Notes under the pieces: generated by a model
Database searches by the model: none
What the model was told of the DNA's origin: nothing
The model's input: only the letters and a program-made list of their open reading frames with translations
Part shown: positions 475 through 10,376 of the stretch, in pieces
How positions within the stretch are numbered: position 1 is the stretch's first letter
How the letters are laid out: each line of letters opens with the position of its first letter
DNA from: Propionibacteriaceae bacterium
Lineage (GTDB): Bacteria > Actinomycetota > Actinomycetes > Propionibacteriales > Propionibacteriaceae
DNA: 33,771 bases
Direction of reading: 5' to 3'
Assembly (NCBI GenBank): GCA_020846255.1
Contig: JADLEH010000045.1
Span: forward strand, 1 to 33,771
Translations under genes and position numbers: made by a program

Positions 475-1686
475 GTGACCGCAGCAGCGACCTCCGAATC
501 GCGCGCCCGCGCGGTCGCACTGGCCCTGGCGGCGGTGGCGCTGGCCGTCGGCACGCTGCTCGTGGTCTCCCTGACCAGGACGACGGCTGCCGGCCTGCTC
601 GGCGACCTCGACATCTATCGCGAGGCGATCCGGACGAGCCTCGCCGGGGGCGACCTCTACGCCTACACCTACGACCATCCGACCGTGCACGGCCTCGGGT
701 TCACCTACCCGCCGTTCGCCGCGCTGGTCCTGGTGCCCTTCGCCCTGCTCGAATCGCTCCCGGCCAAGATCATCTGGACGGGCCTCACCTTCGCTGTGGC
801 CATCGGCTGCCTCGCCGTCCTGGTCCGCCAGGCCGGCAGCGACAGCACTGGCCGGGTCCGGGCGCCGTCCGCATCGAGGGTGGCCTGGGTGGCCGGCCTC
901 GCCGTGCCGGTGATGCTCACCTACCCGTTCCTGCACAACCTCGTGGTCGGCCAGGTGAGCCTCTTCGTCGTCGCCCTGGCATTGTGCGACCACCTGCTGC
1001 CCCGGCGCTGGCAGGGCCTGCTGGTGGGTCTGGCCGCGGCGATCAAGCTCACCCCGCTGGTGTTCCTGCCCTACTACCTGCTCACCCGGCAATGGCGGCA
1101 GGCGGCCGTCTGTGCCGGCTCCTTCGCCGGCGCCTCAGCGCTGGCCTGGGCGATCCTGCCCGGTGCCTCCCTGGCGTACTGGACGGACAAGCTGTGGCAG
1201 ACCGGACGGGTCGGGCGCACCGACTCGACGGTGAACAAGTCGCTGCTGGGCTTCCTCTCCCGGCAGCTGCCCGATGGTGTCCCGACCAACCTGGTCTGGC
1301 TGGTGGTGGCCGCGGCCGTTGCGGTGCTGGCCTACTGGCGGGCCGGGCAGCACTTCCGCGACCACAACCTGCTCGCCGCAACCCTGGCCGTCGGCGCCCT
1401 CTCCGTTGCCGTCTCGCCGATCTCGTGGCCGCACCACCAGCTGTGGCTGGTGTTCGCCGCCTGCTGGTACGTCCTGCAGTGCGGGCGCACTGCCCTGCTG
1501 CTGGGAACGGCCCTGTTCGTGGTCTTCCTCGGTTACCCGTGGTTCGACGACTACCCGGCCGGGACGGTAGGCACCCTGCTCGGCATCGGCGTCGAACTGC
1601 CGGCCCTCGCCGTCCTGGTGGTGCTCGGGTTCGGGCTGCTGCCCAGCCGCAGGGCCAGGGTCGCGCCAGAGCCGGCCCTGAGCTGA
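475..1686 (+). CDS. GT87/DUF2029-family polyprenol-phosphate-dependent glycosyltransferase (paralog 1)
   Basis: Multi-TM protein; DLDIYREAI near N-terminus, FTYPPFAAL, AAIKLTPLVFLPYYLLTRQWRQA, NKSLLGFLSR, SPISWPHHQLW motifs; GTG start. Confidence 0.8.
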   Translation: MTAAATSESRARAVALALAAVALAVGTLLVVSLTRTTAAGLLGDLDIYREAIRTSLAGGDLYAYTYDHPTVHGLGFTYPPFAALVLVPFALLESLPAKIIWTGLTFAVAIGCLAVLVRQAGSDSTGRVRAPSASRVAWVAGLAVPVMLTYPFLHNLVVGQVSLFVVALALCDHLLPRRWQGLLVGLAAAIKLTPLVFLPYYLLTRQWRQAAVCAGSFAGASALAWAILPGASLAYWTDKLWQTGRVGRTDSTVNKSLLGFLSRQLPDGVPTNLVWLVVAAAVAVLAYWRAGQHFRDHNLLAATLAVGALSVAVSPISWPHHQLWLVFAACWYVLQCGRTALLLGTALFVVFLGYPWFDDYPAGTVGTLLGIGVELPALAVLVVLGFGLLPSRRARVAPEPALS

Positions 1687-2861
1687 TGGCCGGCGACTGG
1701 AGCCGCGCGAGGCTGCTCGCCGCGAGCGTCGCGCTCGGGCTCGCGCTGGTGTCCGGCTACTACTTCCTCGCCGCGGTGGTCGGCGGCAGTCCGGCCGCCG
1801 ATGGTGGCCTGCGCCTTGCCGACTTCGACGTCTATCGGGCAGCTGTGCAGTCCTGGCTCGACGGGCGCGGCCTCTACACGGGGGTCGCCCCGAGCGGGGT
1901 CTGGACCTCGGAGCTCCAGTTCACCTACCCGCCGTTCGCAGCCATCGTGCTGGCTCCACTCGCCTGGCTCCCGGCTCCGGTCGCGGACTGGTTGTGGTTC
2001 CTGCTGTCGCTGGCCGTCTATCCGGTACTGGCGATCCTGCTGCTGCGGCAGGCGCCCGGTGCCCGCCAGGGACCGCGACTCACATCGTTGCTCGCCGGTG
2101 CCCTGGTCAGCCTCGGGTTGCTGCTCACCCAGCCGGTGAGCCACGGCCTGTTCGTCGGCCAGATCAGCGGCTTCATCATCGTGGTCGCGCTGCTGGACGC
2201 TGCGGGCATCGTCCCGCAGCGCTGGCGGGGGTTCCTGGTGGGCCTGGTTGCTGCAGTGAAGCTGATCCCGCTCGTGTTCGTCCCGTACTTCCTCGTCACG
2301 CGACAGTGGCGGGCGGCCCGGAACAGCCTGATCGGTTTCGGTGCTGCGACCCTGCTCGGCTTCGCCGTCCTGCCCCAGGAATCGGTGCGCTACTGGACGG
2401 CGCTGGTGTTCGACTCCTCCCGGGTCGGCGAAGTCGCGGTGAGCCGGAACAAGTCGCTGCTCGGCCTGCTCCACCGCTGGGGCCTTGGCGGCGAGAGCTG
2501 GCTGTGGGTCGCCCTCGTCGCGGCGATCGCCCTGGTCGCGTTCTGGCGGGCCAGCCGGCACTACGCCCGCGGCGAGGAGTTCGCTGCTGCGCTGGTGGTC
2601 GGCACCCTCTCGATCGTGGTGAGCCCGATCTCCTGGCCGCACCATCAGGTCTGGATTCCACTGGCCGCCATGTACCTGATGCTGCTGCGCCGGCGCTGGC
2701 CGGCTGTTGCCGGGGCGTTGTTGCTGGCCGGCTACTGGTTCTACACCCCCTTGATCAGCTGGGCGGAGACCGGCCCCCTCTGGTTGCGGCTCGCCTGGGA
2801 GATCCCGACCCTGGTCCCGGTGACCATCGCGCTCCTCGGCCTGGCCAGGAGACAGCCGTGA
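1686..2861 (+). CDS. GT87/DUF2029-family glycosyltransferase (paralog 2)
   Basis: DFDVYRAAV, FTYPPFAAIVLAPLAWL, AAVKLIPLVFVPYFLVTRQWRAA, NKSLLGLLHRWGL, SPISWPHHQVW; ATG overlaps the upstream stop (TGATG). The longer frame from 468 is an upstream extension. Confidence 0.8.
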   Translation: MAGDWSRARLLAASVALGLALVSGYYFLAAVVGGSPAADGGLRLADFDVYRAAVQSWLDGRGLYTGVAPSGVWTSELQFTYPPFAAIVLAPLAWLPAPVADWLWFLLSLAVYPVLAILLLRQAPGARQGPRLTSLLAGALVSLGLLLTQPVSHGLFVGQISGFIIVVALLDAAGIVPQRWRGFLVGLVAAVKLIPLVFVPYFLVTRQWRAARNSLIGFGAATLLGFAVLPQESVRYWTALVFDSSRVGEVAVSRNKSLLGLLHRWGLGGESWLWVALVAAIALVAFWRASRHYARGEEFAAALVVGTLSIVVSPISWPHHQVWIPLAAMYLMLLRRRWPAVAGALLLAGYWFYTPLISWAETGPLWLRLAWEIPTLVPVTIALLGLARRQP

Positions 2862-3976
2862 GTGACCTCCGGCTCCCCGCTCCGGCGAGGGTCGGCGCCG
2901 CCGCCGGCATCGGGCTGGGCCTCGCCTACGTCGGGGTGGCTATCGCCGCCCTGCCTGCCGTCCAGGTCGACCTGGGCACGTACCAGGCGGCGGTCGGACG
3001 GTGGTTGACCGGCGGTTCGCTGTACGGCCCGACCAGCGAGGGGGCCTTCCTCTACCCACCGTTCGCCGGGCTGCTCCTGGTTCCGGCTGTGCTGCTGCAA
3101 GCCCCGGTGCCTGCGGCGATCAACGTGGCCGTGCACCTGGTCGCCTGCGTGGTGCTGGCCGTCGTCCTGCTCGTTGGGTGCCCGTCGGGCCCGCGCGGTC
3201 GCGTGGACGGGGTGCTCGGGTTCCTGCTGTGCACGCTTGCCCTGCTGGCAAGCAACCCGGTCGTCTCGGGGGTGTACTTCGGTCAGGTGAGTCTCGCCGT
3301 GGTGACCATGGTGGTCCTGGACTCGGTCGTCGGACCCCGCTGGCGCGGCCTGCTCACCGGAGTAGCTGGAGCGATCAAGTTGTGGCCCCTGATCATGGTT
3401 CCGCACTACCTGCTCACCCGGCAGTGGCGCGCTGCGGCGAACTCGGCTGTCGGGTTCGGTGTGGCCACAGCGCTCGGTTTCGTCGTCGCACCGACCGACT
3501 CGCTGCGGTACTGGTCCGGCAGCGTTTCCGTGCCCACCGCGCTGGCACCGTTCAACAAGTCCCTGTTCGCGCTGGTGCACCGCTGGAGCCTTGATCCCGG
3601 GCTGTGGATCGCCGGCGTCGTGGTCATCGGGGCGGTTGCCCTCTGGCGGGCCGGCCGGCACCACCGTCGCGGGGAGGGCCTGGCCGCCGTTCTGGTGCTC
3701 GGTCTCGCGACCACCCTGGTGAGCCCGCTGACCTGGATGCACCACCTGGTCTGGTGGCCGCTTGCCGGGCTCTGGCTCGTGCTGGCGGGGAACCGGTGGC
3801 AGCGCCTCCTGGGTGGGCTGATGATCGTGTCGATCCTGTCCGGCTCACCACTGGTGCCCTACACCGCGGAGGTGGCGCCCGGCCTGGACCTGCTGGGTGA
3901 TGTGTTCACGGTCGGCTCGGCGGTCCTGGTGTTCACCGGCCTGCCCGGTACGGCTCGGGCCGAGGCGGTCCCGTGA
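2858..3976 (+). CDS. GT87/DUF2029-family glycosyltransferase (paralog 3)
   Basis: GTG start in a GTGA overlap with the previous gene; VDLGTYQAAVGRWL, FLYPPFAGLLLVP, GAIKLWPLIMVPHYLLTRQWRAAANSAVGFG, NKSLFALVHRWSL, SPLTWMHHLVWW. Confidence 0.78.
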   Translation: MSDLRLPAPARVGAAAGIGLGLAYVGVAIAALPAVQVDLGTYQAAVGRWLTGGSLYGPTSEGAFLYPPFAGLLLVPAVLLQAPVPAAINVAVHLVACVVLAVVLLVGCPSGPRGRVDGVLGFLLCTLALLASNPVVSGVYFGQVSLAVVTMVVLDSVVGPRWRGLLTGVAGAIKLWPLIMVPHYLLTRQWRAAANSAVGFGVATALGFVVAPTDSLRYWSGSVSVPTALAPFNKSLFALVHRWSLDPGLWIAGVVVIGAVALWRAGRHHRRGEGLAAVLVLGLATTLVSPLTWMHHLVWWPLAGLWLVLAGNRWQRLLGGLMIVSILSGSPLVPYTAEVAPGLDLLGDVFTVGSAVLVFTGLPGTARAEAVP

Positions 3977-5637
3977 CTGCTGTCGGGCCGGCTTCGGCGG
4001 TCGAGCGATCGGGTCGGGTCGATGCGCTCGTCCGCAACGGCTCCAGCCTCCACCACTACCGTCGGTTGACCGATCGGCCCGACCGGCCCTGGCAGCGGAT
4101 CGGCACCGTCAGCGAACGGGCTAGCGGACCCGGCCGGCTCGGCAGGGCCGGCAGCGGCTTGCTGGCCCTGATCCCGGAGGACGGCCGGATGGTCGGCTAT
4201 CGATTCGATCAGACCGGCTGGCAGCGGGCAGAGGTCGAGGCCGCGCAGCTGGGTCGACTCCCCGGGGGGATGGCGCCCTCCGCCGCGGAGCTCGGCGTGG
4301 GGGCGCGAAGCCTTCGAGCGGTCGCGACCTACACCGCCCGCGGCTGGCCGCAGGCCCTCACCGACGAGGACGGCTCGGTCTTCAGCTACCACCGGCGGCC
4401 CGACGGACGTTGGGAACGCAACTCCTGCCTGCGGCTGGCGGACGACGCGCCGTTCGTGGCCGACGGCCCGGAGTCGGTGAAGCTGGCCCAGGTGACCGGC
4501 GACCTGGACGCGACCCCGACCCCGTGGGGTGAGCGCGCGCCGACCCTGAGCAGGTCGCTGAGCACCGCCGGGATCAGGGGCACCGACCTCGGCGTCCGCG
4601 TCGACCACGACGGGCGGACCTTCCTGCTGTTCGGGGACACGCACTGGACCCGGCCCTGGCTCAGTACCAGGGACTCGATCGCAGAGGTGACCGAGGCCGG
4701 CCCGCTGCCCGGGTTGCCGGGCGTTCGGTTCCATGGCTCGCCGCTGAAGCTGGTCGGTGGCGGCACCACCATGCGCGAGTACGACGTGCCGCTGGACGGG
4801 TTCTCTGCCGGCGGCAACCTGTACGGCTTCTTCACCAGCAACCACGGTCGCCGGCGGCGCATCATGGGCCGCTCGGTGCTGGCCCGTGCCGAGGACCCGG
4901 CCCTGCCGATCGACCCAGCCAGCCGGCACCGTCCCGTGCGGTTCAGGGTGCTCGGGACCTTCAGCGACCGGCACTTCATCAACGTCTCCACCCAGCTCGT
5001 GCCCGCGGCAACCGTCCCGGGCTGCGGAACCGTGGGGGAGGTGCTGCTGATCTGGGGCAGCGGCCCCTACCGTGCCTCCGAACCGCGCCTGGCGATGCTG
5101 GACGGCGAAGCGCTCGCCCGATTGGCGGAAGCGGGTTCGGCGGGGGACGGATCCGGCTTCGGCGTCCGCTACTGGACGGGGTCGGGTTGGTCGCAACTCG
5201 AGGACGACGCGGCCCAGCTGTTCGGGCCGGCCGCCCTCGGCGAGCTCTCCGTGCGCTGGGTTCCTGCTGCCGGGGCCTACCTGATGCTGGCCGGGGCCGG
5301 CCCCGAGGACCCGATCGGCCCGGCCATAACGCTGCGGACCTCGCCCACTCCGTGGGGACCGTGGTCGCGGCGGCGGCGGTTGCTGGACTGGGTGGCCACC
5401 GGCATGTCCCATGCCGACCCGTTCGCCAGGTTCATCAGGGCGACCGGTACCGACGACCCGGTGGGCGACCGGATCTTCGCAGCGCAGGCCCGGGTCACTG
5501 GCGCCGCCTACGCCCCGTACCTGTTCGATGCCAGCGCCGAGGGCTCAGATCTCGTGCTGCGCTACACGCTGTCCACCTGGAACCCGTACCAGGTGGTGCT
5601 GATGCAGCACCGGCTGCCCATCCAGCCCCTAATCTAG
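3973..5637 (+). CDS. DUF4185-domain protein (GH183-like fold) with N-terminal lectin/propeller-like segment
   Basis: GTGA overlap with preceding gene; GTDLGVRVDHDGRTFLLFGDTHW, DVPLDGFSAGGNLYGFFTSN, SPTPWGPWS typical of DUF4185; N-terminus has repeated short segments (VRNGSSLHHYRR, VFSYHRRPDGRWER). Confidence 0.7.
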   Translation: MTAVGPASAVERSGRVDALVRNGSSLHHYRRLTDRPDRPWQRIGTVSERASGPGRLGRAGSGLLALIPEDGRMVGYRFDQTGWQRAEVEAAQLGRLPGGMAPSAAELGVGARSLRAVATYTARGWPQALTDEDGSVFSYHRRPDGRWERNSCLRLADDAPFVADGPESVKLAQVTGDLDATPTPWGERAPTLSRSLSTAGIRGTDLGVRVDHDGRTFLLFGDTHWTRPWLSTRDSIAEVTEAGPLPGLPGVRFHGSPLKLVGGGTTMREYDVPLDGFSAGGNLYGFFTSNHGRRRRIMGRSVLARAEDPALPIDPASRHRPVRFRVLGTFSDRHFINVSTQLVPAATVPGCGTVGEVLLIWGSGPYRASEPRLAMLDGEALARLAEAGSAGDGSGFGVRYWTGSGWSQLEDDAAQLFGPAALGELSVRWVPAAGAYLMLAGAGPEDPIGPAITLRTSPTPWGPWSRRRRLLDWVATGMSHADPFARFIRATGTDDPVGDRIFAAQARVTGAAYAPYLFDASAEGSDLVLRYTLSTWNPYQVVLMQHRLPIQPLI

Positions 5638-5661
5638 GACGGGCTTGCTTGAGGAGGTGCG

Positions 5662-6843
5662 GTGCGGACCGAGCGGATTCGGGTCATGACGCTGCGCGCC
5701 CTCCTGGCCCTGCCACCGCTGCTGGCCGCGCTCTACATCGGCGGCACCCAGATCCCCGGCAGCACCCTCTGGCCCTGGCGCCCCAACATGATCGACCTCG
5801 AGGTCTACCAGCGGGCCGGCCAGCGGCTGCTGACCGGCGGGGACATCTTCGACGCTGCCGGTCAGCTGCCCTGGATCTATCCGGCCTTCGCAGCCCTGCT
5901 CACCATCCCGTTCGCAGTCGTGCCGTTCCTGCTCGCTGCGTTCGCCTGGCTGGCGCTGTGCACGGCCGCGCTGGCAGCCGTGCTGTTCCGCCTCGGCTTC
6001 ACCGGCTGGCGGCTGAGCCTGCTCACCACTGCCGTGATCCTGTTCGTCCAGCCGGTTCGCGACACCCTGGGTTTCGGTCAGTTGGCCATCTTCCTCGTCG
6101 CCGCCGCCGTTCTCGACTCCATGCCGGGGCCGCGGGTGTTCCGGCGCCGGCTCCTGCCGGAAGGCTGGCTGGTCGGCGCCGCCACCGCAGTGAAGCTCAC
6201 CCCGGCGGTCGTCGCCGCCTACAACTTCTTCGCCGGGCGGAGGAAGGCCGGACTCGTGGCTTTCGGCACTTTCCTTGCTGCGACGGCGCTCGGCTTCGCC
6301 GTGCTGCCACAGGCATCGCTCAGTTACTGGTTGAAGCTGGCCACCGGCGACTCCGGGCTTAACTCCGGGATCCTCTACGCGTCCAACCAGTCGGTGCTGG
6401 GGGTCTGGACCCGGCTCACCGGTGAGCCCAGCCGCGGCGGACTGGTGCTCAGCGCACTGGTTGTGGCCCTCGGGGTCTGGGCAGCCGTCCTGATGCACCG
6501 CAGTGGCCAGGTCGCCCTTGCGTTGTGCCTGGCCGGCCTGACCAGCCTGCTGGCCTCGCCGATCTCCTGGTCGCACCACTACGTCTGGGCCGTGCCACTC
6601 GGCATCGTCTTGTGGCAGGCAAGGGACCTGCCCGGCCATCTGCGGTGGCCCGGCATCGGGTACACGCTGTGGGCAGCCCTGGCGCCGTTCATGATGCTGC
6701 CGATGGGCGGCGAGCTGGAGTTGGGCTACACGTTCTGGCAGCAGGTGGTGGTGAACATCGGCGTCTTCGCCGGGGTGGCCCTGCTGGCGGCATCCGCTGC
6801 GACTGCGCTCGGCCCCTGGGGACACCGGAAGGCCCAGTCATGA
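5662..6843 (+). CDS. GT87/DUF2029-family glycosyltransferase (paralog 4)
   Basis: RBS GAGGAGG before GTG; MIDLEVYQRAGQRLL, WIYPAFAALLTIPF, TAVKLTPAVVAAYNFF, SNQSVLGVWTRL, SPISWSHHYVW. Confidence 0.78.
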   Translation: MRTERIRVMTLRALLALPPLLAALYIGGTQIPGSTLWPWRPNMIDLEVYQRAGQRLLTGGDIFDAAGQLPWIYPAFAALLTIPFAVVPFLLAAFAWLALCTAALAAVLFRLGFTGWRLSLLTTAVILFVQPVRDTLGFGQLAIFLVAAAVLDSMPGPRVFRRRLLPEGWLVGAATAVKLTPAVVAAYNFFAGRRKAGLVAFGTFLAATALGFAVLPQASLSYWLKLATGDSGLNSGILYASNQSVLGVWTRLTGEPSRGGLVLSALVVALGVWAAVLMHRSGQVALALCLAGLTSLLASPISWSHHYVWAVPLGIVLWQARDLPGHLRWPGIGYTLWAALAPFMMLPMGGELELGYTFWQQVVVNIGVFAGVALLAASAATALGPWGHRKAQS

Positions 6844-7721
6844 AGCGGTGGTTCACGGCTGCTGCCGTCCTCACCCTGGCCTCGGTGGTGCTCGGCGCCG
6901 TGGTGTGCGCAACCGAGTCCGGCGCGGCCTGCCCGAATTGGCCCGGCTGTTACCCCGACGGCTTCGCTCCCGCAGCCCAGCTGAATCCGCTGATCGAGTT
7001 CGTGCACCGGGTGGTCGCAGCTGTCACCGGCCCGACGGTGCTCGTCGCTGCCGTCCTCGGGCGACGCCTCGCCGACCCGCGGCCGCGGCGGCTGGCCTGG
7101 ATCGGGCTGGCGGGCACGATCTCGGCGGGGCTGTTCGGGATGCTGATCGTCAAGATCGGCATCCCCTGGTGGCTCGGCGTCCTCGACCTGGCCAGTGCGC
7201 TGATGGCCACCGTGGTGCTGCTGGTGGCCCGGCTGCTGCTCGCTCCCGGGGCGGAATGGGCGCCCGGCCCGGTGGCCCGGCCGGCGTGGACGGCGGTCGG
7301 CACCCTCGCGGCCATGCACCTGCTGGCCCTGGCCGTTGCCGGCGCGAACTCGTTCACCCGCTGCCTCAGCTGGCCTCTCGGTGTGATCGCCGCTGACCGG
7401 TGGCCCTGGCTCCAGGTGGTGCGGGTCGGCCTGGCGGTGGTGGCCGCCGGAGCGATCGCGGTAGCAGCCAGGCGTGCCGGACGTCAGCCCGGCACCCGCC
7501 TCGCCGGGCGGCTGGCCACCGTGCTGCTGGTGGCCGAGCTCGGTCTGGCCGCACTGCTGCTGGCCGGCTCCGGCGGGCTCCTGCTGCGCACTGCCTACGC
7601 TGTGGTCGCGGCCTGCCTGTTCGGCGCCGTGGCACTGCTCGCCGGCCGCGCCAGCGTCCCGGCCGGGCCCGGGGCAGAGCCCGGGAAGACCCCGGCCCCA
7701 GCGGTGCTGACGGCGGAATAG
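6840..7721 (+). CDS. CtaA/COX15-like multi-TM membrane protein (degenerate heme A synthase-like)
   Basis: ATGA overlap with previous gene; CPNWPGCYPDG...NPLIEFVHRVVAAVTG resembles the CtaA first-half motif (CPDWPxC...EWxHR). Confidence 0.55.
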   Translation: MKRWFTAAAVLTLASVVLGAVVCATESGAACPNWPGCYPDGFAPAAQLNPLIEFVHRVVAAVTGPTVLVAAVLGRRLADPRPRRLAWIGLAGTISAGLFGMLIVKIGIPWWLGVLDLASALMATVVLLVARLLLAPGAEWAPGPVARPAWTAVGTLAAMHLLALAVAGANSFTRCLSWPLGVIAADRWPWLQVVRVGLAVVAAGAIAVAARRAGRQPGTRLAGRLATVLLVAELGLAALLLAGSGGLLLRTAYAVVAACLFGAVALLAGRASVPAGPGAEPGKTPAPAVLTAE

Positions 7722-7736
7722 CTGCAGGACTAAGCT

Positions 7737-7759
7737 AGTTGAGTCTGGTGAACTCAACT
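7737..7759. promoter_or_regulatory. HspR-associated inverted repeat (HAIR-like) upstream of clpB
   Basis: AGTTGAGT-CTGGTGA-ACTCAACT, perfect 8-bp arms and 7-nt spacer; matches the HAIR core TTGAGT-N7-ACTCAA; 22 bp before the clpB ATG. Confidence 0.85.

Positions 7760-7781: not shown

Positions 7782-10376
<2,595 letters not shown>

Follow-up and report, generated by a model that had tools for sequence, protein, structure and literature searches.

Lipoglycan assembly is known mostly from mycobacteria and corynebacteria. The MptC and MptD proteins of corynebacteria and the MptC of mycobacteria are reported to be strongly related to PimE, and in C. glutamicum, MptC and MptD share the work of mannan branching, with roles that overlap in part (PMC3123699). 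Mutagenesis of PimE found residues D58, Y62, Y92, Q163, K195, W319, H321, and H322 to be essential or important (PMC12041525), and members of GH183, a second family relevant to this locus, cleave D-arabinan (PMC10115798, PMC10509167). Here, we analyzed a stretch of 33,771 nucleotides (the window) in which genes of both families lie in close succession. Our preferred reading, to which we give a probability of roughly 0.55, is a lineage-specific envelope-glycan operon of Propionicimonas-like bacteria that combines PimE/MptC-like transferases, using a polyprenyl-phosphate hexose (probably mannose), with a GH183-fold protein (g4) and an accessory or dispensable protein (g6). The families are all known ones, arranged here in a way seen at the level of the genus, and the system is not widely conserved. 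The relatives named by a public genome scan are Propionibacteriaceae; because Propionicimonas metagenome-assembled genomes (MAGs) are among the nearest of them, we refer to the host, conditionally, as Propionicimonas-like. The assembly behind the window is itself a MAG (4.13 Mb, 462 contigs, 97.5% complete, 5.5% contamination), so genes called absent could have been missed.

The original prediction of six same-strand genes between positions 475 and 7721 was confirmed. The forward-strand array starts with g1 (475 to 1686, GTG start, 403 amino acids), a predicted polyprenyl-phosphate-hexose-dependent glycosyltransferase of GT87, followed by two paralogs, g2 (1686 to 2861, ATG start, 391 amino acids), which overlaps g1 by 1 nucleotide in TGATG, and g3 (2858 to 3976, GTG start, 372 amino acids), which overlaps g2 by 4 nucleotides in GTGA. 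The DUF4185/GH183-like gene g4 (3973 to 5637, GTG start, 554 amino acids) overlaps g3 by 4 nucleotides, also in GTGA. The single gap, of 24 nucleotides, separates g4 from the core GT87 gene g5 (5662 to 6843, GTG start, 393 amino acids), and g6 (6840 to 7721, 293 amino acids), encoding a degenerate CtaA-family protein, overlaps g5 by 4 nucleotides in ATGA. Pfam agreed with the gene contents that had been assigned: g1, g2, g3, and g5 score 167, 165, 121, and 120 bits, respectively, in PF09594 (GT87; cutoff, 25 bits), g4 scores 87 bits in PF13810 (DUF4185; cutoff, 39.5 bits), and g6, at 30.3 bits, is a borderline match that only just exceeds the cutoff of PF02628 (COX15-CtaA; 29.9 bits). From this spacing, we infer that the six genes form one operon. 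The gene after g6 is clpB, which starts at 7782 and is directly preceded by a HAIR-like inverted repeat visible in the sequence itself (TTGAGT-N7-ACTCAA, 7739 to 7757, forward strand; 1e-4 expected per window). Such an element stands before clpB in nearly all of the clpB-bearing sister loci checked. clpB is thus likely under separate HspR-type heat-shock control, and given this element, the operon probably ends at g6 and cotranscription of g1 to g6 with clpB is unlikely. A sigma-70 promoter and terminator scan of the window gave matches at or below chance level, and Rfam and tRNA scans of the window gave none. Back to back with g1, on the reverse strand (1 to 323), lies a divergent gene for a secreted-looking protein (MKISRSTAAWAITGAIGLTVVGG..., rich in Ser, Thr, Ala, and Pro) that runs past the window start.

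The GT87 identity of four of the products was borne out. In a phmmer comparison, g1 matched the MaPimE cryo-EM structure (9dm5) with an E value of 6e-21, and a profile built from nine such GT87 proteins reached 4e-39 against MaPimE. Residues D44, Y48, Y78, Q160, K191, W318, H320, and H321 of g1 correspond, in this order, to the PimE residues listed above, and all eight are conserved in the four GT87 proteins; the catalytic Asp and Tyr and the donor-phosphate Lys, Trp, and His residues are invariant in all four and their orthologs. The paralogs are as strongly diverged as had been claimed (36 to 44% identity). Two of the sequence blocks described as common to all four are not universal: g5 lacks RQWR and reads KLTPA in place of KLxPL. 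All four proteins fall below the PimE equivalog cutoff (NF009915, NCBIfam, 413 bits; best score, 152 bits), so that acceptor and linkage may differ from those of PimE, and the donor may be other than mannose; judged by sequence, they are PimE-like enzymes rather than demonstrated PimE. In the GT87 tree, g5 belongs to one clade and g1 to another, while g3 is found among g2-like rows on a branch of length 1.42, and because of this long branch, its exact position is unsure. Homologs of g5 (E value of ≤1e-30) occur in 74 of 148 Propionibacteriaceae genomes, representing 17 of 29 genera; its linkage to clpB was seen only in Propionicimonas. The best reading is that g5 is a widespread core GT87 and that g1 to g3 are lineage-specific variable paralogs. 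Neither a backbone enzyme of lipomannan (MptA/MptB) nor Ppm1 was identified in the host MAG, and two other GT87-like genes of the host genome (C340 and C426) have no informative NCBIfam name.

The assignment of the DUF4185 protein as GH183-like was supported by fold and by conserved catalytic residues. The AF2 model of g4 (pLDDT, 86.6) has EndoMA1 (8hhv), with its GH183-type propeller, as its best fold match in the PDB (E value, 6e-16; TM scores, 0.45/0.52), and D205, D222, and E424 of g4 correspond to D33 (nucleophile), D51 (acid/base), and E243 of EndoMA1 and are invariant in ortholog alignments. A phmmer search of the PDB with g4 alone returned nothing, the GH183 match being obtained only with a profile; both sequence and predicted fold make g4 a remote relative of GH183. 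About 190 residues at the N terminus form a β-rich domain, which gave no Pfam match past the DUF4185 edge and no meaningful PDB profile match; PHROGs searches with g4 and g6 gave no match either. Hydropathy analysis of g4 and 17 orthologs (n = 18) detected no signal peptide or transmembrane segment. An export signal is usual in characterized GH183 members and is not part of the family definition. g4 and the active sites of the GT87 proteins should therefore lie in different compartments, and the earlier idea of assembly and trimming in one compartment was not borne out. The arabinan-like product fared no better: Emb-type arabinosyltransferase (PF04602) and AftA (PF12250) had no match in the host genome, with C. 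glutamicum as a positive control, and on this evidence we rejected arabinan as the product of the operon. What g4 and its orthologs define is a conserved GH183-like clade, apparently cytoplasmic, in bacteria without known D-arabinan.

g6 resembles the CtaA/Cox15 heme A synthases in its 8 predicted transmembrane helices, in the Cys pair (CPNWPGC) and EFxHR motif kept in its first half, and in profile matches to 8aw5 (E value, 2e-9) and 6a2j (E value, 2e-8). Its AF2 model has low confidence (pLDDT, 54), so the heme A synthase fold match is only supportive. Unlike these enzymes, g6 has other residues at the three heme-ligand His positions (in the TM4, TM6, and TM8 regions), where both other CtaA paralogs of the host (C281 and C117) keep His; on the loss of these histidines, we rejected g6 as a working heme A synthase. 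It would be a membrane protein derived from CtaA in which most of the heme ligands are gone, with an accessory or dispensable role.

GT87 genes are present in 29 of 30 Propionicimonas genomes, and DUF4185 genes of the g4 type are present in 14. The gene order is g1-g2-g4-g5-g6-clpB in one locus (L054), g1-g4-g5-g6-clpB in another where g2 was not found (L055), and g1-g2-g4-g5-clpB, lacking g6, in a third (L058); in a fourth (L060), where g2 was again not found, a TMEM175 gene on the opposite strand lies between g1-g4 and g5-g6. Two sister genomes (L085 and L086) carry LysE-g1-g2-type-g2-type-g5-clpB, with four GT87 genes in a row and no DUF4185, such arrays without g4 being recorded for G214/G052, and G147 has DUF4185 without GT87 neighbors. 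In G133 and G131, g1-g2-g4 is separated from g5-clpB by about 15 and 13 kb, respectively, with nitrogenase-type genes between them. Genes for nitrogenase-component-type proteins and a radical-SAM/NifB-like gene adjoin the DUF4185 module in three stretches from sister Propionicimonas (L037:11418-18978, L038:10418-17617, and L039:739-7920), two of which include a homocitrate-synthase-like gene. The gene set appears to be two separable modules joined, and the 24 nucleotides that separate g4 from g5 fall at their boundary.

Beyond this genus, the flanks examined of DUF4185 orthologs in Micropruina, Propioniciclava, and Nigerium (up to 10 kb, contig permitting) contain no GT87 gene, and these orthologs have unrelated neighbors, for example, SorC-type regulators and glp-type dehydrogenases. 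Within the short flank of 1.5 kb, the best 30 DUF4185 loci of a class-wide sample also have no GT87 gene. Linkage of GT87 and DUF4185, with or without the CtaA-like gene, was found only in Propionicimonas; the absence of co-occurrence beyond close relatives is what the original prediction had named as evidence against itself, and the idea of one dedicated system was not supported. In Micropruina (L064, L072, and L077), a gene for a SorC-type sugar-binding regulator is followed by the DUF4185 ortholog and then by genes of the glycerol-3-phosphate-dehydrogenase type (DAO).

This variability invites the reading that the stretch upstream of clpB is a site of variable insertion where genes gather without a shared pathway, g4 and g6 being passengers unrelated to the GT87 product. 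The contents upstream of clpB indeed vary among sister genomes (nitrogenase-type genes, TMEM175, MFS/TetR, GT87 genes, and DUF4185), g6 occurs in only some of them, and g4 elsewhere has unrelated neighbors. However, the tight overlaps of 1 to 4 nucleotides and the g1(-g2)-g4 order, which recurs in at least eight further genomes, are suggestive of selection for coexpression, and we consider the passenger explanation possible though doubtful. In another reading, the acceptors of the GT87 array would be extracellular proteins or an exopolysaccharide, and not a PI-anchored lipomannan. GT-C enzymes act on several acceptors, and no PIM-specific equivalog match was obtained here, but the nearest characterized relatives, PimE and MptC/MptD, work on PIM/LM, making this alternative unlikely. 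Quite improbable is the original prediction that a single dedicated locus builds an envelope glycan resembling arabinan or mannan and that g4 trims it outside the cell, a prediction for which the D-arabinan activity of GH183, the overlapping genes, and the intact g4 active site speak, but against which stand the missing Emb and AftA, the lack of signal peptides in g4 and its orthologs, the three genera in which g4 has no GT87 neighbors, and the arrays of G214/G052 that have no g4.

Under the preferred reading of a lineage-specific envelope-glycan operon, a polyprenyl-phosphate hexose would be made in the cytoplasm and then flipped outward, where the GT87 proteins, as GT-C enzymes, would have their active sites. 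g5 together with g1 to g3 would transfer a hexose, most likely mannose, from its polyprenyl-phosphate carrier onto an acceptor anchored in the membrane, in the manner of PimE and MptC/MptD acting on PIM/lipomannan; g1 to g3 may alter branching or capping, the number of paralogs setting the branch pattern. No lipoglycan structure for Propionicimonas was found. g4 would most likely hydrolyze or bind a glycan intermediate in the cytoplasm. As for the origin of the locus, the g1-g2(-g3)-g4 module was probably placed immediately upstream of the g5(-g6) module, itself located before clpB, this direction of the rearrangement being presumed.

A broader suggestion, which we put forward only tentatively, is that Propionibacteriaceae keep a clade of cytoplasmic GH183-fold enzymes whose substrate is other than mycobacterial D-arabinan and that Propionicimonas recruited it to a GT87 mannosyltransferase operon, pointing to unrecognized intracellular processing of glycan intermediates and to a second GH183-fold activity. 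The signal-less clade is the most interesting loose end of the locus and what merits experimental attention most in it, as it probes whether GH183 is truly restricted to D-arabinan. Lying outside mycobacteria and corynebacteria, the GT87 array of variable copy number in turn provides a natural series (one, two, or three extra paralogs, with or without DUF4185) for relating GT-C duplication to branching.

Among known systems, the mptA/mptB/GT-C cluster of Micrococcus luteus, reported to be cotranscribed (cited in PMC3229680), is likewise a set of clustered and probably translationally coupled lipomannan GT-C genes from another actinobacterium; unlike the present locus, it is described there with no mention of a DUF4185 or CtaA-like gene. 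With the GH183/DUF4185 endo-D-arabinanases (EndoMA1, DgGH4185a/b, and Rv3707c), g4 shares the propeller fold, the nucleophile and acid/base Asp residues, the third Glu, the equivalent of Tyr293, and the C-terminal WNPY motif, with about 19% identity to EndoMA1 in structural alignment, whereas it differs from them in having no signal peptide, in its extra N-terminal domain, and in belonging to a host in which no D-arabinan synthesis was detected. The four GT87 proteins are closest to PimE, MptC, and MptD, the GT-C α(1→2)-mannosyltransferases of PIM/LM/LAM synthesis in Corynebacterineae. They share with these enzymes the fold family, the catalytic Asp and Tyr, the phosphate-binding Lys, Trp, and His-His residues, and the presence of several paralogs per genome; in contrast to them, they lie below the PimE equivalog cutoff and are encoded as four paralogs in one operon, in a member of the Propionibacteriaceae.
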